Assembly: GCA_950295325.1 (NCBI GenBank) | Contig: OX485803.1 | Span: 15,748,001-15,812,000 of the forward strand | DNA: 64,000 nt | Origin: Polytrichum commune | Lineage: Eukaryota > Streptophyta > Polytrichopsida > Polytrichales > Polytrichaceae | Direction of reading: 5' to 3' | Part shown: positions 18,156 through 49,200 of the stretch, one piece after another | Position numbering within the stretch: the first letter of the stretch is position 1 | Layout of the letters: every line of letters begins with the position of its first letter | Program-made: the position numbers and the translations under genes | Notes under the pieces: generated by a model | Databases searched by the model: none | What the model saw: only the letters and a program-made list of their open reading frames with translations | What the model was told of the DNA's origin: nothing

Positions 18156-18677
18156 TTATGACGACCCATCCTCTAACGATGCTGGAGCTTGACCAGTACC
18201 TCCCTGTTCCTCTCCGACCTCAATGTTCCGGGGCTGGAAAGCTTTGGCCTCGACTTTGGGCACTGTAATGGTAAGAACTCCGTCGTCCACCTTCGCCTTC
18301 ACGTGATCCAGGTTGGCATTGTCGGGGAGCTTGAACCTGCGCATGAATTGGCCGCGACTGCGTTCCACGCGGTGCCACGTGTCCGTCTTCTGCACTTCCT
18401 CCTTGCTTCGCTGACCGCTGATGCTCAGAATCCTCCCATCCTCCACCTGCACCTTAATCTCCTCCTTCTTCAAGCCCGGCAGGTCGGCTTTGAAGATATG
18501 CTCCGTCGCAGTTTCCTTCCAGTCCACGTTGGTGCTGGCCACCGCACGGGCGTCCCGCGCGAAAGAGCTCGCAGGGCTGGATTCGTCGAAGAAGATCGCC
18601 ATTGTCTGCACGGGGTCGGGAATCATGTCCCACAGGCTGTTGCTCCGGCTGCTGCCAAAGAACGGCGCAAGTGCCAT
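18156..18677 (-). CDS. Small heat shock protein, class-I-like (173 aa)
   Basis: ATP-independent holdase chaperone that binds unfolding proteins under heat stress. The 173-residue product has a short variable N-terminus (MALAPFFGSS). An alpha-crystallin domain spans about residues 50-140: it begins VDWKETATEHIFKADLPG, includes EDGRILSISGQR, and ends DDGVLTITVPK. A C-terminal I-x-I/V motif (IEV, residues 152-154) mediates oligomer assembly. There is no signal or transit peptide and no KDEL, so a cytosolic, class-I-like location is inferred. The first in-frame ATG is at 18,677; codons further upstream lack ATG. The length is close to the family norm and the gene is intronless in its coding part. 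Heat shock elements and a TATA box lie upstream. The tail after IEV is longer and more acidic than in typical class I members. Confidence 0.93.
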   Translation of the reverse strand: MALAPFFGSSRSNSLWDMIPDPVQTMAIFFDESSPASSFARDARAVASTNVDWKETATEHIFKADLPGLKKEEIKVQVEDGRILSISGQRSKEEVQKTDTWHRVERSRGQFMRRFKLPDNANLDHVKAKVDDGVLTITVPKVEAKAFQPRNIEVGEEQGGTGQAPASLEDGSS

Positions 18678-18702
18678 CGATGACTTGACCAATAACAAGA
18701 AC

Positions 18703-19984: not shown

Positions 19985-21758
19985 GTTTCCATTACAAGAG
20001 AGGAGAGGGGGGTCGAAATTGAGAAGGAGCTTTCTACTTGGACCAGAGGTTGGAGAGGGAGCAATCGAGGCCAATCAAAGAGATTTTCAAGCGGCCAGTG
20101 GGTAGACCAAGACAAACGGAGAGAGTGTTGTTGAAGCCAAAGGTGGAGAAGATGAAGAGATCAGTGGGCACAAAGAAGGTTAGAGGTTCTTATACAAACT
20201 GGTTTACTCCTATTCTTTGGCCTCCTATTTTCAATGCAATGAAACAACATAGAAGTATAGGAGGGGCATGGAATTTCTTAAGGTCAGCCTATAGGAAACC
20301 TGGAGATTTCTCTTGTGTGTATGACAATTTGTCTAAAAGCTCCATGAGATAATGGTTTCATCCAAATGGAGACTTGAAAGATACATACAAGCGATGTGTG
20401 AAATTTGACACTTAGTTTTCCAAATCCGCCCAACATTGCCCGATTTTAGACTTTCATCCTCTCTTGAAAAAAGAGATTTGTGCAATTTTAAAGAAGATGA
20501 GAAAGGCAGGGCAACCTCTCTATGCGGTTTGTATCTAGCCATTGATCAAGGCTATCATCCTTGACAAAGCTCCGCATATCCTTGAGGGTACACATTCTAC
20601 TGCCTTCAAAATATCTTATGAATGGACAAAATATTTTGTGAAAGCTGAGCTGAACTGGAGTTACATGGCTGCAACTACTGCAGTTGGTAAACTGCCAAAA
20701 GATTTCGAAAAGCAAGGCAAGACAATGGCACAACATTGTGCTTACTTAGTCAAAGTCCACAACATACCCAAGGAGTTGGTTGTGAATACTGACCAAATAT
20801 GCATTCATTTAGTTCCTATATGAGGATCAAGGACATGGGAGACTAAAGGAAAAAAACACATTAAAGTACATGAGATAGAAGACAAACGTCAAGTTACAGT
20901 TACTGTATCTTATACAGCAAACATGTATTACCTTTCCAAGTCATTTTCCAAGGTACCACCACAAAAACTTTACCTAAGCTTGAAGGGGGTAGAAAAGAGT
21001 GTGAATTGTCTGGATGGAACATTTCCTACAGTTACAATCACTGGTCTACACTAGAGACATGCAAAGAGTTTGTTGAGAAGATCCTACGACCTTACCTAGA
21101 TGCACAAATCCAGCAAATGACACTCCCATCAAATCAAGAGATGATATGGCTTATTGACTGCTGGAGTGTACACATTTGTAAAGAATTTCGAGATTGGATG
21201 AAGACACATCATCCTGAAATTTTTGTGCTCTACATACCAGCAAACTGCACAAGTATCTATCAACCAACAGATGTAGTCATTCAACGTCCTTTCAAACATG
21301 CATTGCGCCAAGAATTTAACAAGTTTACTATGGACACTATTTCAAGCCAATTGAAAGGAGGGGAAGATGTGCAAATGGATTTCAAGATGAACAAGTTAAA
21401 GCCTTACTTATGTCATTGGTTTTACAAGGCTTAGATCAATGTCTCAAGCATGACTGACATGATTAGCAAAAGATGGACACAAACATGTTTATTAAGAACA
21501 TTTGATAATGACTTTAAAAAATAAGCTATGTTAGATAATATGGTAAGACCATTGTTTAATAGCAATGAAGTTGAAGTAGAGGCATGTAATACAGAGTGTA
21601 ATGAGGACATCGACGTTGAAGTCTCTTTAGAGACTGTGATGGAGGAAAATCTTACAAGGGTGGTTGAATTGTCCAAAACAGTCAACTCAAACAAGATGGT
21701 ATCAATAAGCTTGCAAGGAGGAAGACTTGACAGCTCTACTAAAGTAAGTAGTTCTTAA
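19985..21758 (+). pseudogene. Broken pogo/Tigger-type DDE transposase
   Basis: A decayed reading frame of a DDE_1-superfamily transposase. A basic segment KRPVGRPRQTERV (near 20,090) is followed by GSYTNWFTPILWPP and HRSIGGAWNFLR. The middle contains AAELNWSY-like sequence and VVNTDQICIHLVPI, the block with the first catalytic Asp. After a frameshift near 21,010 come WLIDCWSVH (second Asp), HPEIFVLYIPANCTSIYQPTD, RPFKHALRQEFNKFT and an acidic tail to 21,758. At least four in-frame stops (about 20,350, 20,413, 20,536 and 20,821) plus the frameshift show it is dead. I could not identify terminal inverted repeats around it. Confidence 0.8.
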
Positions 21759-27813: not shown

Positions 27814-28243
27814 ATGGGGGAGTGCTCCCCCCGGGTTGAAATGATATTGTTGAAATTCCAATACCTTGAAGAAGAAAGTGACATATGTGACGGAGAACTC
27901 CTGGAATTTATGGAAACACTTCGACATGAGTGTGAGAACGAAACAATATTTGAGGCTTGGCGCATACGTGGTAGCAATTTGGAATGGCACACAAATCGGC
28001 CTAAACTTATGCAACTTTGGCAAAAAGTTACACTCATTCCATCAAGTATAGTTATTTGTGAGAGAGGATTTTCCAAACAAAATGCAATCAAAAGCCACTT
28101 GTGCTCATGAGTTGAACTTGAAGGCCCTTGATGCTCTTATGCGGGTCTCTCTTTGTGGGCATGAAGTGGATGCAATGGATTGGGCTACCATCTTCAACAT
28201 TTGGAGAAACATGCGAGACCGAAGGATACATATGCTTGATTGA
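27814..28243 (+). pseudogene. hAT transposase C-terminal fragment
   Basis: The translation includes LMQLWQKVTLIPSS, VICERGFSKQNAIKSHL, then (one frame over) ELNLKALDALMRVSLCGHEV and IFNIWRNMRDRRI. This is the C-terminal dimerisation region of hAT-family transposases (CERGFS and WRNMRDRRI blocks). A single extra base near 28,107 shifts the frame, and the BED finger and DDE core are absent. It lies about 550 bp upstream of the polymerase-delta-like gene. Confidence 0.8.
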
Positions 28244-28799: not shown

Positions 28800-31700
28800 A
28801 TGGAAGACCAGAATGTACCAATGCAAATGATGCTGCTGGATGCCATCTTTACGGATGCCCCAGCCTCGAAAAGTTCCACTCCTCCCTCGGTATGGATTTT
28901 CTTAATACTTTTCGATGCAGAAAGGATTCTCTAAGTGAAAATTCTGTACTGTGAATTGCATATGAGGATTTTGTTGATTGCGATCATCCTGCATTGTCAA
29001 ATGTTATTTAATGTAATTTGAAGTACGCCTCCTCTCTTTTCTTTGAAGATCAAGATTTCTGCATCCGAAGTTACTCAATCTCATTCTTATCTGAGAGCAA
29101 TTGGAACTGTTAGCTGATTTAGTAATTTTTGTACTTGAGTGCATGTGGCGTTGTTGGATACATTCATGTCAGTGTATCATGGATTTGCGTAGACTTGGAT
29201 TGCTTATTTCAAAAATCCTTGCTGTGTGTTGGTTGAAATGACTCTTCTGCGGATTTGCTCTTTGATATTGACTTTGGATAGGTCACATTCAGGACAACTT
29301 CTTGTGTCCATGATCACATTTATGCAAATTGGACTATTCTTTGCCAAAATGATGAGCTATTAATGCATCTGGTTTACAGGCAGTTTCTCTCTGGATTGCA
29401 CATTTCTGATTTGGAATCCCAAGCACAGTGATGCAATTTTTTACTGGATCAGAGTGTGTGTTTTGATGTCTATTTGAGAAGCCATGTCTTTGGATGTCAT
29501 GAGCACATGCATGGATCTGATCGAGGTCTATGTGGATTGTGGGGCAGGTGCTTTTGTATGGGCTGAATATGAAAGGTGAAAGCATTGCGGTTCATGTGAA
29601 CGGTGAGTTCAATTCTCTTCTGTTTGGAGGTTGAATCGGTTAAAATATCCATTTCTTCATTGACTACAAGAGCTTATACAATTGATTGCAGGAGAGAACA
29701 AATAAAATCAAGTTGGTTTTTTGGAGGCGTATGATATATGAAGGTTCCAACAAATTGTGCTCTGGATCTTCTTGCCACCACTGATCCTTTTCGAAAGTAC
29801 ATGGAATGTTGACAGTTCATATTTGGGCTTGTAGATGTTTTATGGTTTTTTTGGAAATATTACTGAGACGTAAATGGACGATGATGCAGATTTCCTGCCT
29901 TACTTCTGGTTCCCAGCTCCAATCTGCAAGGAGGATGGAAAAGAAGTGCCTTTGGAGGAAGATAGTTTGGAAATTGTCAAAGAGCACCTCATCCGTAGCA
30001 TGCAAACCATTCGCAAGAGAAGTGGTGGCTCATCAGACAATTTTGTAAGCTCGACCCTGAGTGCCCAAGTCTGATGTGGATGCCCTGGGTCTACAGATTC
30101 CTTAATGAGTCAGGGGATCCATTCCTTATGTTTATTGAAAGGAGATAGAATCCAGAAAGGTACAGGGAGAAAGCATTTGTGGATCATTTTGAATTTCGTC
30201 AGATATTGCATCCATTTCTGTTGAGCTGTCATGGAGATTTACACTTGAAAATCTGCAACATCTCATTGGCAAATGACTCTATTTTATATCCTTGTAGTCA
30301 TCCTTTGGCTGCTTTGTTTCAAATTTCTTTTAGAGCACTCATACTTGTGCCGTTGGAAATGAGAGGCTCTTTCATGAAATTGTCTCAATAATGGAGACCC
30401 CAACCTCTCTATGTAACAAGGGGCTCACTTCAGAAAGGGGGGGGGGGAAATGTTCATGTGCGTTTTGTACTGCCTGCAGGTTGCTGGACTATCATTGGGA
30501 AAAAGGACTCCACTTATGTATTACCGTCAAGGAGGCCCTTTCCTTTTTTTAAAGGTGCAAAACTTTCACTTAAGGGTATCCTCGATATTGAAAGGTTGAT
30601 CAATTTTGAGAATGTGAGCAGGGTATTTCCTACTGATCACTTTTGATTCTATAGTCTTTCTAACTACTAATTTTGTGATGAAGGTAGAAGTCTGGAGAGG
30701 TAAAGATGTAGCTGCAGTGGCAAAGGAGCTAACAGTTCTAGCTGAAAATAATGACTTGCGTGGCCACGGTCTCATTTGGAAGGATCACACCTCCCATGAA
30801 GATGGCATCAAGGTGAGCATATTTCCGCATACTTCAAATTTTTTTCCAGATATGGAGTTAAAAGGTGAGATTGCTAGTGTCGGAGCATGGCTGCAACTTT
30901 CAAATTATATTTGCCTATTTCTTTGTATTGGTCTTGATTTGTAGATGATTTGTTTATGATTAAAATTATTTAGGATTGAGTTCTTCCTTGATCGTCCCAT
31001 GCTTGAATTAAGGAAAACATCTGTATAGTATGCCTTTGATCGAAGTTATCCTGCCCCTTCCAATCTTGGATTGGAAATGAGTATGTATGTCCTGCTCTAG
31101 ACATGTATCTGTTGACAAGATTTTTTTCATTGGAAAATGTCTCAGTGATCAAGAATAGATGGTACTGATGATTATTGGAGGTACCTTATTAGTGCTATGT
31201 GTTGTTGAATGGTTTGTACTCTCTCAAGAGTTGTAATGGCCTTTATTCTAACTCTTAAACGATCATATTATCCTCCACATTGTACTTTCATCACCTTATG
31301 ACTTGTGCAAGTCAATTGGTATTACTGGACTTTGAACCTTTTTTTTTATGTTAAGGTCTGTGAGAATGTTGATTCATACTATAAAATCCTATTGTTTCTG
31401 ATCCTGCTGTATAGTTTGTAGTTTTGGTTTGTTAATGTTTCCATGTCAGCACATTTTTATACATAACACATATTTCTTGGGCAGTTGGGTATGCGTTTCT
31501 TTTGTGACACAGCTCTGGCAGGGGGCTCTTGGGTGGAAATCAAGCACTCAAACCAAGTTCCACACAGTGAACAAACAACAAGGTGTTCCAAAGAGCTTGA
31601 AGCATCCTGGCGCAATCTGACTGGGTTGACCCCTGATGCCACACATCATATGGAGTTCACAGAAGCAGTTGAAGGTGTACCAGCTATCCCTTTCAACAAT

Positions 31701-34700
31701 TCTGGTATAACTTCTCAACAAAGTAGGGAGATCATCTTGGGTATGGATGACAAAACTGACCTTTCACTTGGGGATGAGGAAGGGGTCATTGACTTCTCAG
31801 AGGTACAAAGTAAGTTGAGCACACAGGAACAATCTGTGTCAAGAAAGCAGAAGCCTGTAGACAGCTCTGTTATTGAGCCCTCAACCTCAACTTCAACCTC
31901 TGAAGAGTCTACTTGGAGCCTTATTGCCCCTCTGCGAATTGTTTCACTGCATGTACAGTGTTCAGGTGGTGGAAAAGTATCATCAAGTGAGACCAAAGCA
32001 AGCAGTAGTATTAGTACACTGAAGTCTTCGGGAAGGGGGAGGGGCAGAGGAAGAGGAAGAGCTACCCCTCCAGTTAGCGCCAATCCAAAAGGTAGGACTA
32101 TGGGGGGAGTGACATTGGAATCCTCAAGTGTAGATGAATCTAAGGTTGGTGACATTGAAGCTCTTGGCAATCTTGTCGGTGGAGGGTCGCCAATTCCATC
32201 ACGGGATCCGGTGCTTCTTATATCAAATATACTTTGTTTTAGGGGTCATGAAGATGGGACAAGGCAGGTTGTTTTCACCCATGGTAAATCCATCCAAGAG
32301 GGAAATATACCAGGGGTTGAGGTACGAGAATTCACGTCAGAGAATACCATGCTACTAGCATGGCGGGATTTTTTCTTCTGGGAGGCAGATCCCGATGTTG
32401 TGTGTGTGTATCAGATGAAGGAAAGCTTGCGTTATATGGCGGAGCGGTTCAAAGTGCTGAAGCTGGGCACCTTTGATATTGGTCGTCGTAAGGGTCAATC
32501 AACAGAGGTGAGCTGTCCCCAGGTTACGTGTGTCATACTATCTGTTTAAACAAGTATACTGATTTTAACTTCCAAGGAGTTGTTCTAGTTGTATTGGCCA
32601 CTCAAAAGGTTGTAGTTCGTGTGCACTTAGCACTACAGTTGTGTTCTCTGCTAGTGTGGTAAATCCTGCTGTGTATGTGGATGCAATTGCAGGTAAAGTC
32701 GGTTGTTACTTATGGAAAGCACTGGGTGAGGCAACAGGCTCGTATGACATCAACTTCCAATCAGGAGGTCTTCCGGGCTTATGTGGAGGGGAGAATGGTT
32801 ATAGATATGCTTCGAGTGATATTGGTGTCGTTTAATTTGTCCACGTTCACTCTTGGTGAATGTTGCCAGGTGAATATTAATGAAACATATTAGGATATTA
32901 TTTCCTTCTGACCAAGTTTGCTTGGAACACCAATTCTATGGCCACCATGTTGGCTCCTAGTCAGAGCTGCAGTAGTGGCTACCTGGTTTAATTGGAAGTA
33001 TTTCAGTTATTTTTTTTCAACTGAAGTAGGTGGGGGCAGCTTTTTTTAGGAACTCCGAAAGAGGTCATTTCAACTGCTGTAGTGTCAGAGCTTTGGATTG
33101 GAAAGCATGGCGGTCTGCAGCGTCTCATGCACTACTCACTTAATGAAGCCGAGGTGGGCAATTGGCTATTTATCTTGTAGTTTTGTTGTGCAGATAATCC
33201 TGTGGTTGCTCTGAGGATGCAGGTTTGCTATAGTTGAGTGCTATATCCCAATCAGGAGTATAAGTTCATTGAATTTCTTTGTAGTATGTGCAGTATAAAT
33301 CTCCTTTGGGTAATGAATTGAAGATAATGACAGGTTGCTCTTAAGTTGATGGAGAAGCTACAAACAGTTCCAGAGACAGTAGAGATGGCAAGGGTCACTG
33401 GGTTAACTCTTTCTGAAGTCCTTTACAAAGCTCAGATGGTGCGTGTGCAAGTAAGTGGATCTCACTGATGATGCCCTTTGTTCTGTCACATTCTGCACAA
33501 TTACCTGCCTTTGTTAAACAAAAGATTTAGTTGCTGGTTGACTTAGAGGATCTGATTACCTCATGAGCATTGGAAATATGCTTCTAATGTCAGGTCATCA
33601 TGTAAGTACTTTTAAAGTACTCTTGGTCCTCATAATTGGAGAATGTTATATCTTAGTTTTGATGCGACTATTTATTTGTCTTTATGGTATGGGTGAAGAG
33701 CCTGCTCTTACGGAGTGCAAGGAGAGAAGGTTGGCTGCTTGGTGGCACGACTCTGAATGGTAGGTTTTGTTCATTTTAATGCTCTGGAGCATCCAACTAA
33801 GTGGGAAAGATTGGCTAAAAGATGCAGCTGTGCATCTATAATCATATTGATTTGAAAAGTGTCTCACTTGAATCCTCATAGACTTTGCTGATGTGGTCTG
33901 AATTCTCTGAAGATCTCCTGAATTTCATAATCCATGTTGTGTAAAGAAATTGTTTTTTTATTGTATATGTCACTTGCTGTTGAACAAAAAGTCAAAGAGG
34001 ACTTTGTGGCATTGTTACAGATGAACATGCCAATTTGTCTGTTTATTGTCATCTGGCTCAAAAGGAAAACTATTTTGAGAGGAATACTGGTTTTTGGAAG
34101 CAGGACAGTTATCAGAAAGCCCTTTTCTTCTACATCCAAAAGATAATCACACTGCTGGAATTTATCAGGTATCATAATTTGAACTGAAGCTGGAAATTTT
34201 AAGTTGCTAGATTTTGAATCACATAATAATACGACTGAAATATTTCAAAGCTTTTACTATTTCCTGTCTTAACGATGCTGAAAAGGCTGAGGAGTGATAG
34301 GTGTGATATCATGGAAATGCTAATTGGGAGGTTCTTCCTAAAGCCGATCTGTGCATGCAGGACCCTATTGCAATTTTGGATTTTGCTTCACTGTACCCAT
34401 CATTATTCATGGCTCATAACTTGTGAGTGTCTTAGTAGCTCTTTCCAACAGTCTTAGTACCTCAAGGATGCTCTTTCTGTCAGTTTGTTGTATTTATTTG
34501 ATCTGTTCTTTGATTCATGAAGTTCCCTTTATGCAGAGTCTCAGTGATTTCTTCATATTATTCATACATTCTGATAGAGTGCTGGGTGACCAGATGCTAC
34601 ACAACCTTGGTGCATCCAGAGGATGTAAGCTCACTACCTGCTGACCAGCTAATGACTAGGTAGGCTCTTACAACCTCATGCTCACAAGCTTAGGTTTTTT

Positions 34701-37700
34701 TATTGTGGTGACTGAACTGAATGATACAGAAACAATATATGTACGTAAAATCTGAAAAAAAAAACAAATGATTCTGGGAAATTAGGATCTTTTAGAGTAA
34801 TAGACTGTCTCATGTCATATACTGGGTATCACACACATACTTGGAAATTGATACTCCCTGCTCCCTGCTCCCTCAGTTGGTGTATGTCCAAACAAATTGG
34901 GCATGCTCCTTCTTGACCTATTTGATCAAGGATGGCTTTGTGGGTGGGTGTTGTGCAAGCCCAACTGGTGCAAAATTTGTGGTTTCATCACTGCGACGAG
35001 GTGTATTACCACGAATATGCGGTAAGTTTTTTAATTCACGTCAAGTGTTCCATCTACTCAAACTGAAATTTCTGTGTCTCGTTTCCCTTCAAATAAATGT
35101 TGGAGGCAATCAACAACCGCATTCATTTTGGTTGGATGAATGTGCACACTCCAGTTTTACTTACAGTGCCAAAGTGGAAGTCTGGTAGTTTTGTGTTGTG
35201 ATTTTTGCTGATGCACTTTCACTACAATTAGTATGTCACAGGAGCCTTGATCACAGCACGTAAGCAAGCTAGAGACCGGATTGCCAGTGATTATATTGGC
35301 CCCGAGGAGCGTGTTGTGCTTGATGGGAGGCAAAAGGCTTTAAAGGTAACAAGCTCAAAATAATTTTGTAGAATGATGGATTCTGTTTGATAATCACAAG
35401 GATCCCATCATCACACCTTGAATAAGACTGTCTGCATTAATAAAATGTAGTACTCAGAATCTGATAAACACGTCTGATCTATATTACCTTCTTCTGTTTG
35501 CAGCTCTGTTCAAACGCTTTGTATGGATTCACAGGGGCAAGTGCATCACCTCAACAAGCTCTGCCCTTGGCAGACACTTGCCTGAGGTATTATGTGTACT
35601 GCAACTTCCCAAGGATCTAAATATCAACCATTGAGAAATTATGTTCTGCTTTACCAACTCCAAAATATACAGCATGCACATGCTGCTGCAGAATAGCTGT
35701 TAATAAGTCACTTCTAGGCTTTTATCAATTGGATAAAGATGGGGGTGGTGGTATTGGATGGGGAAATTAGTCTGGGCTTGTGTTAATAGCAACAAAACTT
35801 TGAAGATATTGATTTATCACAGTATAGCATTTACATTGGGTCATTGGTTTATTTCTATCTATGCTTTTAAACTATAAGCAATCATTATATGGCAGACATG
35901 CGAATTGAAGATCTGATTACAATCTTAATCCTACATCAAACCAACAGTATATATAATGGGTGCAGCATGGGAGCAGCTTCATGCCACCAGGCTGTACAAC
36001 TTGTTGGAAATATGTTTGAGACAGCCAAGGTCATCTACGCACAGACAGACAGTGTCTTTGTTCATTTCCAAGGTGCCAGCATTGATGAAGCCATTAAACT
36101 GGGTACGCAAGCTGCTGAGATTGTGTCCCAAGCCTTTCCTTCTCCTATGGCCCTCAAATTTGAAAGGGTGAGAATCACGTATCTCTCATAAAAACTATTG
36201 TATGTAGCACCATGATTTCTACGTTACCTTGGTGTACCTGATGGTGAATTCCAGAAGTTTCCTGTGGTGGTATATTACAAGCAACAAATGTAATATGATT
36301 ATGCTAGTATTGGACTTACTGTGAACTTATTCTCAGTGGTAGTTTGAGGAAATACTTTGTGTAGTTCCTTTTCCTGGGTAAAATTCACTGCATTATGCTC
36401 ATCATAGTGATTGCTGTTGTGTTTGTCATGCACATGGTTTTTCACAAGTGTTTTTCACAAGTGATGTCAGAGTGTAAGCAGACAATCACCCTTGCTATTG
36501 CTTACAGGAAAGCACCTTCTTGTGTGTTTTGTAGGTACTCTGTCCATTTCTCCTCCTTCAGGTCAGTTATTTTAGTCCCACTGTGCTCATCAATAATATC
36601 CAAATTCTTCTAGATCTACACTTGCAAATAAGGAGAAGATGAATGCTCTTTTTGTATTTGGGACATTCTCTGGGATGTGAAGAGCTTTGCAGTCTGAAGG
36701 TGCACATGTATCCATTCTCCATCTTTCTTTGACTGGAGAAATATCTTTTTGAACCCTGTCTCAGGTGAACAGGTATGCAGGAAAGCAATATACTAGCAGC
36801 CAGGCACTTGGGCCGGGGACTTTGTTTGTAAAAGGTATTGAAGCTGAGCGTAGAGATGTTCCTGGATTTGTGCGACACGTATGCAAACAGGCACTGTATG
36901 ACATCCTTGTCGACAACGATGTTGCTCGAGCTCTAGAGAATTGCAAGAATTTCATACGACGACTAGTAGCGGGCAAGTGGAGCCTATCAGAGATGGTGAT
37001 GACTGGGGTAAGACTTACACTGACCCTTAAGTATCTTAAGAACGGCCTTGAATATCACTCAGTATGAATTGTGGTATTTTGCATGGTGTTGCCATTTACT
37101 TATTGCTACTAAAGCCCTTTTGGCTATCTTATAGTTGGGATGCCTTCAAATGCTTTAAAACAACGATAGGCAATGCCTAAAACTTTATTACACATGGATT
37201 TGCAGTGAATTCTCGAGACAATTATACAAAGATATTAGTCACCGCACTTTGACCATTTTCTATTCCTCTTTACTCATATGTATGTAGGACCTTCCTGACA
37301 ATAGGGAAGGTGTTTAATGGCAGTGTCCTTGTGCAAATCCTAACATTAATAATTCCAAGTTTGATGCAGGGCCTTTGGAGGGTTGATGACCATGACATTG
37401 CAAAGCTTGCTGCTGTGACGAGGAGCCCCCGAAAGCAGACTGGGGCATCAACTGCAGAGGAAGGGCGAGGCCCACATGTAGCCCTGTCTGTGAGATTGAA
37501 GCGCAAAGATCCTGATCGGCAGTTTCACATTGGAGAAAGAATTTCTTATATTCTTATGGCTAACTCAAGCAAGCTGCAGGTAAATTATGTGAAATTTGAT
37601 CAGTTCAGAAATGATATTATTAATGGGATTCCTAGATTAGCCCGTAAGGAGAAGAGTTCACAAAAATTACCAGTGCTGCTCTGCAATCAATTATGTAACA

Positions 37701-38804
37701 TATTCATTGTGTTCGTTTAGGGACATAAGATAACAGTACAAAAGCCAGGATTTTTGGACCAACAAATCTTTCTTTTTGGGGGCTTGGTAGGATGACATGG
37801 CAGAAGATCCTCTTGATGCCTTGATGGGGGGCGTTCCTGTAAACACGCATGTCTACCTTGAGAACAAGCTCCGCAAGCCTCTTGAATCTGTGAGCACAAT
37901 ATGTCCAACTTTTCTAAGCAGAAGTGCATGGCAACCTTGTAATAGTTTCTCCCAGCTGTGCATCATTAATTGTCAACAAAGTTTCAACTTGGCACCGTAT
38001 CTTTCCATGACTTCTGTTAATTTCTACAAGCTAGCACGACAACATGAATGCATGCCATGATCTGTGCAGAACATGACGGGAACTTTTGCAGAATGTATTA
38101 GCAGGTGCTTGAGTAAAGAATTGTATTTGTTGAAGTTTTCCTGTTTGTCTCTCTGGTGGGATAGATACTGGAGCATGTCATAGATTCTGCAACTCTTCGA
38201 GAACTGTTCACTGGTAGTCACATAGTTCCTCCTCCATCAACATCCCTAGGTGCCTCTAATCGCACTCAGGCATTAGTGAGCAACTTTTTTCGACCAAAGG
38301 CGAGCTGTCTAAATTGCCGGTAAGGAACTGAGTTCTCATAAGGGTTGTCAAATTGCAGGATATCATAATCACATGTTGCTTGATTGCTATATCCAAACCT
38401 CATATAAAGGTTCAAGTGCACTTATAATCTTCCTGTATCAATTGTAAATTCTTGCTGGATTTTCATGCCTTTCAAGACAGCATGCCCACAATAATACCCT
38501 CCTCACATCACTTTAATTTGTTCACAGAAAACCAATGGAAGTTGATACTGCAGCACTTTGTCAAGACTGCACCCAAGGAGGCTATTCTCAAAGTGCAGTT
38601 ACAGAGGTTTTTCTTGAGATAAGTGAGCAAGAGAGAAAGCTTGCGGGTGCAACCGCTCAGTGTATGAGGTGCCACTCAGGAGGACATTTTGAACCTGTAC
38701 TCTGCACGAACTCCGACTGCCATGTATTGTACATGCGCTACGAATGCCCTCAGAACCTTAGGCACATGGAGTCCGCTCTTACCAAGCTCGACAACCAGTT
38801 CTGA
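28800..38804 (+). CDS. Catalytically altered DNA polymerase delta catalytic-subunit paralogue (1,169 aa, 21 exons)
   Basis: Exons: 28800-28889, 29548-29602, 29890-30044, 30684-30812, 31485-32507, 32693-32869, 33040-33153, 33334-33450, 33699-33759, 34143-34168, 34361-34422, 34594-34659, 34960-35021, 35242-35345, 35504-35586, 35966-36167, 36765-37007, 37370-37579, 37791-37889, 38165-38319, 38528-38804. Phases agree at every junction, totalling 3,510 nt without a stop. The product follows POLD1 end to end: FLPYFWFPAPI, GMRFFCDTALAGGSWVEI, APLRIVSL, VEMARVTGLTLSEVL, DFASLYPSLFMAHNLCYTTL, LDGRQKALKLCSNALYGFTG, then two Cys modules. The roughly 90-residue N-terminal region of POLD1 is missing; an upstream in-frame TAA at 28,767 supports the chosen ATG. 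Exonuclease and polymerase catalytic residues are replaced (separate entries). A nuclear, PCNA-linked, non-catalytic role is inferred; a recent pseudogene is unlikely given the intact frame. Confidence 0.85.
31950..33147 (+). other. Degenerate 3'-5' exonuclease motifs of the POLD1 paralogue
   Basis: ExoI: in POLD1 the block is SFDIECAG; here it reads SLHVQCSG (residues 298-305, H and Q at 31,950-31,958), so both acidic residues are gone. ExoII: GYN..KFDLPYL is replaced by VYQMKESLRYM, with Ser (32,424-32,426) in place of Asp. ExoIII: Y..xD (YCLKDA in POLD1) reads YSLNEA, Asp to Glu (33,145-33,147). All four metal-binding positions are altered, so proofreading should be abolished. Confidence 0.85.
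32031..32060 (+). other. RG repeat within an inserted loop of the exonuclease domain
   Basis: Codes for five consecutive Gly-Arg pairs (residues 326-335). It sits inside an insertion of roughly 90 residues between ExoI and the SRDPVLLISNIL strand, rich in Ser, Gly and Thr. POLD1 has only a short linker here. RG repeats commonly bind nucleic acid and are methylated on Arg; a role here is inference. Confidence 0.7.
34143..34168 (+). other. 26-bp microexon of the POLD1 paralogue
   Basis: Flanked by CCAAAAG and GTATCA. Together with the preceding exon's final G it codes DNHTAGIYQ, which replaces the POLD1 ..ARTGFYE.. segment just before motif A. It is needed to keep phase between exons 33,699-33,759 and 34,361-34,422. 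Confidence 0.7.
34379..34402 (+). other. Polymerase motif A, intact (DFASLYPS)
   Basis: Residues 656-663 match the family-B motif DxxSLYPS, including the catalytic Asp. The next residues, LFMAHNLCYTTL, also match POLD1. Confidence 0.9.
36036..36053 (+). other. Polymerase motif C altered (YAQTDS)
   Basis: The near-invariant family-B YGDTDS is YAQTDS at residues 799-804: codons GCA CAG replace Gly and the first Asp. The second Asp is retained. Motif B just upstream is also changed (NSVYG to NALYG, residues 751-755). The YFPYLLINKK segment before RYAG is absent, leaving ERVNRYAG. Confidence 0.9.
38267..38290 (+). other. Canonical PIP box (QALVSNFF)
   Basis: Residues 1061-1068 fit the PCNA-interacting consensus Q-x-x-[ILMV]-x-x-[FY]-[FY] exactly. 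They sit a few residues before the first Cys module, where POLD1 proteins carry a weaker PIP-like segment. Confidence 0.75.
38306..38720 (+). other. C-terminal CysA and CysB modules, both complete
   Basis: CysA: CLNC and CQDC (Cys 1074, 1077, 1089, 1092), split by an intron. CysB: CMRC and CTNSDC (Cys 1123, 1126, 1137, 1142), followed by HVLYMRYE like POLD1's IFYMR. In POLD1, CysB carries an iron-sulphur cluster and binds the B-subunit POLD2, and CysA contributes to PCNA contact. Confidence 0.85.
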
Positions 38805-46237: not shown

Positions 46238-49200
46238 CTACTCTAACCTGGGAGCAGGTGGAGCACCTGCCAGCCATCCCCAAACACCAGTACTTTCCTT
46301 CTGGGAAGCTTCAGAGGCTGCTTTCTCAAAGATGACCTTCTGGCGCTGAAGTAGGTCAAGCTCCTTTTGAATCTGCTCCATGGAACTCAACTTCTGTCTC
46401 AATTCTGCAACCTCTACCTCCAGCCGGAACGACCGATGTTGTTCTCCTTGCAGCTGGCTGCGAACCGATAGGAGCTCCTGTTCCACATCAGCCAAAGAAG
46501 ACAAGGCAGTAGCATTCTCCACCTTAAGCTCCTCAACCTGTTTAGCCAAGGCTGCTATTCGTAGTTGGTCAACTTCATCATTTGTGAAGGCCTGCATTTT
46601 TCTTGTAGCTGGAGCCTCATCTTCCAGGATCATCTTGGTCTCTGAAGGAGATTTATCAAGCTCTTGGTCCAGAAATCTTAACTCAGCTAAATCTTGGGAA
46701 ACAGCCCCAATCTCTTCCATTTCCTGGGAGTCTGCTGTGTCCACTGTGTCCACTACTGGTAAGTCCACATCCACCATCAGTGGCTTCTTCAGAGGACCCA
46801 ACTTGAACACATGGACGTCACTGCTGAACTTACCGTTGTAACCACCAAAGGTCAGGAGAGACTCTCCAGAAACTACAACACTCAATCCCTCACTGGCTAC
46901 AGAAGAATTTCCCTCAACAGTTGCTACTGTGGACCACATTAAAGTGGCCATGTCCAGGACGTGCGTCTCGGAAATGGCACCCTTGTTATCACCGCCTCCG
47001 AATACATACCAACTGTCACCAATAGTGGCACCAGCATGTCCTGCCCTTGGAGTGGGTATGGAGCCTTGTGTTTGCACTGGCGACCACTCCATATTCACGA
47101 TGTCAAGCACATGCAGATCACCGTAGCAAGTAGAATGGGAGCCACCCCCGAAGAAAAAAATGTACTTGTCATTGTAAGCTGCTGCTATATGGTCTGATCG
47201 TGGAGACGGAGGAACACCGGATGGTATTACAACATCCCACGTCATTGTTTCCAGGTCTAGAACATGGAGATCATTCAACAAACGCCTCTTCAGATCTTCT
47301 CCTCCAAACATATATATCTGTGCGCCGATAAGAGTGATAGTCTGCCCCCCACGAGCTGGAGGCGCTTTACCAAAGACGTCCATACTGGTCCAAGATGAAG
47401 TGTGTGTATCGAAAGAGTAAAGCGTGACGTTTTCTTGGCCGTATTTAAAGTGGCCTGCCACCGAAATGAGCTTCCTTCCCCACCTCACTACACTGTGTCC
47501 AGCACATTGAGGGAACCAAGGTTGAAGAGGCTCCGGCTGAGATGAAAGTGGAGACTGAGGGACCTTCGTGTCAGCCTTTGTCCATTCAAGTGTTTTCAGA
47601 TCAAGCACCTGCACATCATTCAAGAAGCGACCGTTGTGATTGCCACCAATGACATAAAGCTTACCCTCCACAACTGCAGCTGCATGCTTGTAGCGAGCAA
47701 GTGGCTTCCTGCCAGTCACTGTGACTGGCACCCATTCCTGGTAGGTTGTGATTGCGTCGATGCCCTCCATCTCAGGCTTACTCTCGACTTCAGACTTGAT
47801 CTCAATCTCAATTTCAGACTCGTTCTCACTGCTTTTCTTGACTTCTGGGTCCAGTTCCTTTGGGGTCAGCAAGTCGTCAGATGTGTGCTGCCCATTTGAA
47901 ACACATGGTACATCCTCCTCTCTTGGTGAGCTGGGAACATCTTTTTCCAATAGTAACTTGGTGAGTTCCCTTGAAGCAGACTCTACTGAAGCTGTATCCG
48001 AAGCTGTGTCTGGAACCTCTTCATTTCGTGGCTGAGCTTTCGTCAACCAATTAGGGTCTGAATCTTCTAGCGTCCGAACAAAGAGCCTCATGGCCTCCAT
48101 AGAGTTCATATTCCCCAGATGATTCCAGCTGTTCCATTTTGCTGTCTCCACCACGTGCCAAGTCCATGGCTTCGGTGTAGTGCAAGGTCCCAAGGTTGCC
48201 TGTTTGTAGAGAGCATAGAGGAGAAGCACTGTATCGTCCGACAACCCTTGCGCCAACCCCTTCCTAGACCTATTTCACATGCACACACACACCAATATCA
48301 CATTCGGCTGTTTAGTGCAATTACAAGAATCGGAAAAATGAAAGGCCACGAGGATAAAGAGATTACTCAACTTCACAAAATCTCAAGCCATTGCCCAACC
48401 ATAGGTTCTAAGCTTGACAAATAATGGATAAGAGTCCCACGACAATGAATTCATACTTTCCTAAAGCAGATTACATCTTGAATAGACATGAGCATTGGTA
48501 CGAATATTACCAAGAGGGCAATGGAACTCTAATTCATCAAAGTGGAAATCTTGTGCACAAGTGTAATCACACCGTACTCGATAGCATACAGGACACGTGA
48601 CAGCTTTCGTGAGACTTCCAACACACTCTCGCGCTCAAAATGCATGATCTACGATTGAGAGTGATTGCAGAATATAATAAACGAGCAAAATGGTAATCAT
48701 GCATTGGCCTTACAAGAGGATCTCAACCCAATTTCCGCACATTTGAACGGAAAACCTGACACCTCGTAGTCTAGACTTCACACTCAACACAAACGAGCAA
48801 ACGGATCTCACGATCACCAGATTCACATCACATGCCATTAAAAGACAATCAATACCACACATTGCCCTCACGATCAGAGCTTCACCCAAATTTATCGATA
48901 CAACCGAAGCTCGACACAAAACCTCAGACACGTACAAAGAAACAAAATGCCACACCAATCGATCGCGACCTCGAGAATGTTGATGCGATCACGAGCCACC
49001 GACAAGAAAAATGCTCGATCGCATGACCAAAACAGAGCAAATAATCAGGGGAGTGACCAGCTGACCCAATCGCGGTGACTTGGACTCCAGAAGACGGGCA
49101 AGGAGGATCCGAGACAACGGCAGAACAAGAGAAAGTGGAGAGGCAGAAGGATTTGGTGCAAGAGAGACAAGCATTTGTTGTGAGAGGGGGTAGTAAGGGA

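Follow-up and report, generated by a model that had tools for sequence, protein, structure and literature searches.

An intact gene with an altered active site

Can a replicative DNA polymerase subunit that has lost its proofreading residues and one of its conserved palm carboxylates still be a polymerase, or is it a well-preserved relic? The question is raised by a gene resembling POLD1, the catalytic subunit of DNA polymerase delta (Pol delta), on the forward strand at positions 28800-38804 of a 64,000-nucleotide (nt) stretch of the moss Polytrichum commune (hereafter the window; C1:15748001-15812000, in a genome of 407.8 Mb and 64 contigs). An earlier note on this DNA described the gene as an intact paralogue that looks like a pseudo-polymerase. 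We lean, in what is close to an even call, toward reading it as a second catalytic-type Pol delta subunit that separated long ago and would serve as a proofreading-free extender polymerase at PCNA (a “POLD1-like Q/H polymerase”).

Exon-by-exon rebuilding, corrected with relatives, gave a model of 23 exons and 1,216 codons from ATG to stop, in which the sole stop codon is the terminal TGA. All 22 introns are GT-AG, the phases fit, and there are no internal stops, frameshifts, or lost splice sites. The intact, POLD1-like spliced frame reported by the earlier note is thus real, although its count of 21 exons and 1,169 codons is too low. Splice alignment guided by a fern protein (P0001) agreed at both ends for 20 of the 23 exons, and the three that differed involve only the two gene ends and a low-complexity insert in exon 6. 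With the incomplete Physcomitrium protein P0002 as the guide 18 exons were reproduced, and with the lycophyte protein P0005, 19. It should be noted that one exon is easily overlooked: a 27-nt microexon (36535-36561) that encodes VLCPFLLLQ and sits inside what appears to be a single intron. A pattern for this region is matched by 41 of 62 database relatives. In alignment with the fern proteins P0001 and P0003, all 22 exon junctions lie where there are no gaps; such agreement, together with 1,216 stop-free codons and 71%-78% identity to the best relative (the figure varies with the region compared and is 78% over the part matched in Physcomitrium), is far beyond chance.

The predicted protein has the Pfam domains exo1 (63.5 bits), DNA_pol_B (270.5 bits), and zf-C4pol (44.4 bits), all above the cut-off and in the order found in POLD1. 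Both its sequence and its fold are closest to Pol delta, with the fold matching along the whole length.

A green family beside canonical POLD1

The first database search with the window protein returned 67 proteins, and the top ones share its motif C class rather than that of canonical POLD1. These top relatives are from Physcomitrium, ferns, Diphasiastrum, Klebsormidium, Chlorokybus (a name deduced from Chlat1, the source prefix), and many chlorophytes. When an alignment of the polymerase part was used for searching, a bit-score gap was evident among the best 120 of 1,959 matches, with family members at 555 or above and canonical POLD1 at 496 or below. A Volvox fragment of 420 residues (P0139) scores below the gap yet carries the family motif, and two members (P0020 and P0050) come from the first search only. 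Overall, the family comprises 62 database proteins plus the window gene, and its named members are mosses, ferns, one lycophyte, streptophyte algae, and chlorophytes. At NCBI they are labeled Pol delta catalytic subunit, POLD1, or hypothetical protein.

Of the 60 family proteins that extend to motif C, 44 have Gln and 16 have His in place of its first Asp (yeast D762); this Asp is present in 190 of 190 other polymerases with the motif. Because the family was delimited by the bit-score gap and by motif C, the count of 60 out of 60 is partly built in, but trees with 26 and 14 family rows recover the same group without the motif C label. A one-off degeneration in this moss is rejected, given that all 60 relatives have the same motif C class.

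Nine species have both a family gene and a canonical POLD1 (the moss of the window, Physcomitrium, Chlorokybus, Myrmecia, Bryopsis, Coccomyxa subellipsoidea, Volvox reticuliferus, Haematococcus, and Tetradesmus obliquus). No seed-plant member occurs among the best 120 matches listed, where the seed-plant proteins are canonical; Marchantia, hornworts, and Selaginella were also not seen there, and were not searched for by name. The case for absence from seed plants is strong but not exhaustive.

In a quick tree of 58 proteins (26 family, 28 canonical, and 4 Pol alpha), the family branch has a support of 100 and canonical POLD1 a support of 91, and the family falls outside the canonical clade. 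Tree and motif C counts agree that the altered residues define a clade, and the earlier suggestion of an intact POLD1 paralogue is borne out, the gene having been kept over a long time. Orthologues range from chlorophytes to ferns. Within the family, a group of 18 rows has a support of 100, and those with names are all chlorophytes. The subsequent branching is as expected (Klebsormidium, the two mosses, then the lycophyte with the ferns), except that the placement of Chlorokybus is unsettled. The canonical POLD1 of the same moss branches next to those of Physcomitrium and Ceratodon. The family stem is very long, at 2.2 to 3.0 changes per column, and with Pol alpha as the outgroup the method gives a long-branch warning. 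In an outgroup-free tree with 14 family rows, the family lies beside one dinoflagellate and one unnamed row (support 83). Both trees are quick ones, made without bootstrap.

Assuming vertical inheritance, the tree and the range of species with the gene place the origin of the family before chlorophytes and streptophytes diverged. The test does not reject a union of the family with green canonical POLD1 (p-AU 0.351), and duplication in an early green ancestor is likely, though short of proof.

The exonuclease site

For the column counts we took 33 of the 63 family rows and, from the 199 others, 28 canonical ones, choosing by length and spread and omitting incomplete rows. In the window gene, the ExoI region (LRIVSLHVQCSG, 31932-31967) has His and Gln in place of Asp and Glu (yeast D321 and E323), the ExoII region (VYQMKESLRYMAER, 32406-32447) has Gln and Ser in place of Asn and Asp (D407), and the ExoIII region, HYSLNEAEV, which continues from exon 8 into exon 9, has Glu in place of Asp (D520). 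The gene departs in this respect from canonical POLD1. That all exonuclease acidic positions are replaced, as first proposed, is correct to the extent that all four are altered (His, Gln, Ser, and Glu), with the qualification that one change is a conservative D-to-E.

Across the family, 1 of 31 rows has the ExoI Glu and 22 of 31 have the ExoI Asp. The ExoII Asn and Asp and the ExoIII Asp are kept in none of the 33 rows, whereas the ExoIII Tyr is kept in 32. Three of the four carboxylates are therefore absent from nearly all rows compared. On these counts the loss of proofreading is clear, and the window protein, judged by its residues, should be unable to proofread. Free drift is seen at one site only, the ExoI Glu position, where eight different residues occur across the family.

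The polymerase site

Motif C of the window gene (36036-36053) reads YAQTDS and not YGDTDS, and exon 19 starts with VNRYAG and not KKRYAG, both differences from canonical POLD1. The polymerase Asp that the earlier note found to be replaced is indeed the first Asp of motif C, now Gln. The second Asp is kept, as is motif A (DFASLYPS, 34379-34402). In yeast Pol3, Asp608 and Asp764 touch two metals, Glu802 touches a third, Glu800 is near, and Asp762 is the third conserved carboxylate (PMC4142720). In RB69, D411 and D623 bind the metals, and the primer duplex is stabilized by KKRY (PMC3564110).

The equivalents of D608, D764, and Glu802 are all kept in the window gene, the last of these also in 31 of the 33 family rows. 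Invariant in all 33 rows are the Asp, Tyr, and Pro of motif A, the fingers Arg, the Lys, Asn, Tyr, and Gly of motif B, and the Tyr, Thr, second Asp, and Ser of motif C. Over the whole alignment, 84 columns are fixed alike and 18 are fixed differently between the family and canonical POLD1, at a threshold of 94% in each. Of 11 published functional polymerase sites, 8 are at least 90% retained. Among the other columns that are invariant in canonical POLD1 the figure is 95 of 243 (one-sided p 0.029), and among exonuclease sites it is 1 of 6 (p 0.043). A twelfth polymerase site, K486 of RB69, was dropped from this test because it is not canonical-invariant.

Based on the column counts mapped onto the yeast Pol3 and RB69 roles, the family keeps the metal ligands and alters Asp762, Glu800, and both KKRY lysines. 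We read this as a polymerase site that has probably been rewired rather than one that has decayed, and the retention tests, though modest, lean the same way.

C-terminal contacts

The cysteines of CysA and CysB are present in the window protein, as in canonical POLD1, so the interaction modules at the C terminus are kept, as originally suggested. In addition, there is a consensus PCNA-interacting peptide (PIP) box, QALVSNFF (QxxPhixx[FY][FY]; 38267-38290), before CysA. Such a box precedes CysA in 42 of 55 family members vs. 0 of 183 other proteins, and is a gain by the family. The CysB cysteines are kept in 48 of 50 rows (selected by a pattern that itself requires part of CysB), and all four cysteines are found in 48 of all 63. 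The Klebsormidium (P0004) and Diphasiastrum (P0005) proteins have lost CysB cysteines. Most likely, to judge from these motifs, the window protein binds PCNA via its own PIP box and POLD2 via CysB.

Extender polymerase or placeholder?

In the most likely mechanism, the POLD1-like Q/H polymerase would take primer ends over from Pol delta at PCNA. The modified site would add nucleotides, its metals held by three kept residues: the Asp of motif A, the second Asp of motif C, and the Glu that binds the third metal. With Gln or His at the position of the first motif C Asp, and VN for the KK that grips the primer duplex, such a site may be suited to elongating mismatched or damaged primer ends, by analogy with archaeal PolB2.

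The best-surviving alternative, which we would not dismiss lightly, is a catalytically dead Pol delta paralogue that keeps its fold, its binding of DNA and deoxynucleoside triphosphates (dNTPs), and its contacts with PCNA and POLD2, and that serves as a scaffold or, at primer ends, as a competitor or placeholder. Loss of the exonuclease carboxylates, the first motif C Asp, and the KKRY lysines fits this idea, as do interaction motifs that are kept or strengthened, and evolution that is faster than that of POLD1. What a dead protein does not readily explain is that the metal-binding Asps and dNTP contacts are invariant in 33 of 33 rows, from chlorophytes to ferns, despite the loss of exonuclease carboxylates. 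The earlier label of pseudo-polymerase was derived from one replaced Asp, and that Asp is not among the two that contact metals. PolB2, which has also lost its exonuclease motifs and has a conserved His in motif C, was filed as inactivated partly for missing the same Asp, and primer-independent PolBs (piPolBs) that also lack it are highly active (PMC7544198). Because both PolB2 and the primer-independent enzymes are active, the label is unsupported. We consider the extender polymerase somewhat more likely than the dead placeholder because of the PolB2-like pattern of losses (PolB2 being active), the Pol delta C-terminal domain, and the family's own PIP box.

Several observations weigh against an active extender, whose activity is itself a prediction. 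The strongest are that the KKRY lysines are gone (replaced by VN in 32 of 32 family rows) and that the residue equivalent to Glu800 is now Lys in 30 of 33, changes that, like the loss of the Arg after motif B, may weaken DNA or metal binding, and that the family evolves faster (73% identity between the two mosses vs. 89% for canonical POLD1). The replaced Asp762 is one of three conserved palm carboxylates, and in some B-family enzymes Mg-dependent synthesis is abolished when the Asp there is substituted. For PolB2, a D(K/R) motif has been proposed to replace the lost Asp; the green family has seven alignment columns with new conserved acids, candidates at most for such a role. The retention tests are modest, and exonuclease sites do not differ significantly from other canonical-invariant columns (p 0.25). 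Furthermore, at three sites the exonuclease replacements themselves vary little (Asn to Gln in 26 of 33 rows, Asp to Ser or Thr in 29 of 33, and the ExoIII Asp to Arg in 25 of 33), so the narrow choice of Gln or His in motif C is weaker functional evidence than it looks. Finally, given the p-AU value above, the sister relation of the family to green POLD1 is tentative.

It is unlikely that the gene encodes a subfunctional form of Pol delta that shares the second subunits and acts as an ordinary replicase in one stage or tissue. The fold and the C-terminal modules are the same as in POLD1, but the proofreading carboxylates are lost in the rows compared and the primer grip is changed.

A form of Pol zeta (REV3) or a captured viral B-family polymerase is, if anything, harder to defend. 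Pol zeta also has a dead exonuclease (PMC7544198), and viral Pol delta-like enzymes exist. However, the moss has a separate B-family gene at C3:9.776-9.780 Mb that carries YGDTDS and KKRY and that we take, from its motifs alone, to be REV3. The window protein is nearest Pol delta in sequence and fold, and its motif C is changed, though its exonuclease carboxylates are lost too; we reject REV3 identity on the strength of that separate gene, named by motifs as it is, and the changed motif. Among 70 viral loci, long matches reach 28%-29% identity at best, and the top value for any segment is 32% (~100 residues), so viral capture is rejected. On the side of a viral source, three viral B-family polymerases (L064, L070, and L071) have His at this place in motif C (YGHTDS, YAHTDS) with motif A intact; these are 3 of 45 loci with a motif-C-like word, among the 70 examined.

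The separate canonical POLD1 that the earlier note envisaged is present in the same genome, intact, at C6:30898340-30909978 (30 exons, 1,083 residues, catalytic residues present). The window protein is ~31%-36% identical to canonical POLD1 proteins over most aligned parts, and only 2 of its 22 introns coincide exactly with those of the genome's own canonical gene in place and phase, with four more within three columns. There are also partial canonical POLD1 copies (L011-L015 and L019) at C4:33.987-33.992 Mb, C6:11.80 Mb, C3:57.704 Mb, C6:31.265 Mb, and C1:28.978 Mb, mostly with more than one exon each and ~46%-90% identity to canonical POLD1 per aligned stretch, some with in-frame stops in exon-matching parts. 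These represent repeated duplication of POLD1 in this moss genome. Although such copies do occur, a young pseudogene or decaying copy of the genome's own POLD1 is hardly credible and is rejected, given that the partial copies resemble canonical POLD1, whereas the window gene is undisrupted, distant from it in sequence, different in most of its intron positions, and a member of an ancient conserved family.

Exon map and neighboring sequences

Exon 1 (28800-28889) begins with the start ATG at 28800 and corresponds to sequence joined directly to that of exon 2 in the relatives P0002 and P0001. Both the rebuild and the splice alignment gave exon 2 (29548-29602), exon 3 (29890-30044), exon 4 (30480-30554), exon 5 (30684-30812), exon 6 (31485-32507, with the ExoI region and the low-complexity insert, which is RG-rich), exon 7 (32693-32869), exon 8 (33040-33153), exon 9 (33334-33450), and exon 10 (33699-33759). 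For exon 11 (34104-34168), the second of two tandem AG acceptors was chosen, relatives having NGQ. Exon 12 (34361-34422) contains motif A. Exons 13 (34594-34659) and 14 (34960-35021) were again given by rebuild and splice alignment. The fingers Arg and the start of motif B, both kept, are in exon 15 (35242-35345), and the remainder of motif B, with Asn, Tyr, and Gly kept, is in exon 16 (35504-35586). Rebuild and splice alignment also gave exon 17 (35966-36167), which contains motif C, the microexon (exon 18, which has the added support of relatives), exon 20 in the thumb (37370-37579), and exon 21 (37791-37889). Exon 19 spans 36765-37007. The PIP box is in exon 22 (38165-38319), and exon 23 (38528-38804) holds the remainder of CysA, then CysB (CMRC...CTNSDC, 38661-38720), and the stop.

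Directly upstream of the gene, at 28060-28243 (+), is a stretch that by eye is like the C-terminal end of a hAT transposase. Elsewhere in the window are a small heat shock protein (HSP20) gene in a single open frame (18156-18698, -; Pfam 104 bits), a DDE_1 transposase remnant (20874-21431, +; Pfam 53 bits), and a long frame, apparently one exon, for an acyl-CoA-binding kelch protein with ACBP, kelch, and ACBP4_C domains (46238-48256, -). A G-rich repetitive stretch with several open frames, on both strands, is at 1810-2686.

Implications

We found no such green POLD1 paralogue in the open-access literature, among the matches listed, subscription papers being outside the scope. One B-family polymerase survey uses neither "plant" nor "paralog" in its main text, and it mentions algae once, in connection with PolB_SITDG, a different group (PMC7544198). 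Apparently, this second Pol delta line of green plants has been undescribed so far, despite being in public annotation already as POLD1 or hypothetical protein, Physcomitrium included. A 2009 analysis recognized four paralogous B-family polymerases in all eukaryotes (PMC2669801), a count that a further conserved lineage across green plants would alter.

Quite possibly, though we would stop short of calling it probable, the green lineage has a fifth nuclear B-family polymerase beside alpha, delta, epsilon, and zeta. It would be PCNA-tethered and proofreading-free, with Q/H in motif C, would predate the chlorophyte-streptophyte split, would have become a PolB2-like extender of primer ends by convergence, and would have been lost toward seed plants. 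That loss, if confirmed, bears on changes in DNA damage tolerance in land plants. The family may be a specialized repair polymerase rather than a dead copy. It looks like a second B-family case, independent of the first, in which proofreading and the first Asp of motif C have both gone, which makes the need for this Asp testable in a eukaryotic enzyme. Physcomitrium is a model moss for gene replacement.

Comparison with known polymerases

Canonical POLD1/Pol3 is the closest system: the order of exonuclease, palm-fingers-thumb, CysA, and CysB is the same, motif A, motif B, and the second motif C Asp are shared, and the folds match over the whole length. The window family differs in lacking the exonuclease carboxylates, in having Q/H in motif C, VNRY, and a PIP box before CysA, and in forming its own clade. 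Pol zeta (REV3) is likewise an exonuclease-dead relative of Pol delta, but the REV3-like gene of this moss keeps YGDTDS and KKRY, and the window protein has neither.

Two other groups resemble the family in part. PolB_SITDG, of cyanobacteria and algae (PMC7544198), also has the first motif C Asp replaced and is partly algal; set apart here by its published description alone, it has a hydrophobic replacement (SITDG), unlike the Y[AGC][QH]TDS of the green family. The C-terminal half of Pol epsilon is another B-family module that has been called inactivated, whereas the window family replaces one of three palm carboxylates and has a pocket that is otherwise invariant in the compared rows.

A parallel for function is archaeal PolB2. 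Purified Sulfolobus Dpo2 shows robust nucleotide incorporation and no exonuclease activity, and it extends mismatched and lesion-paired primer ends (PMC8764526). Like the green family, it has lost the exonuclease site and the first motif C Asp, keeps the rest of the polymerase domain, and exists alongside a canonical replicase. The two are not close by sequence search, and the Pol delta-type C-terminal domain and PIP box belong to the green family, which apparently shares the PolB2 pattern by convergence.

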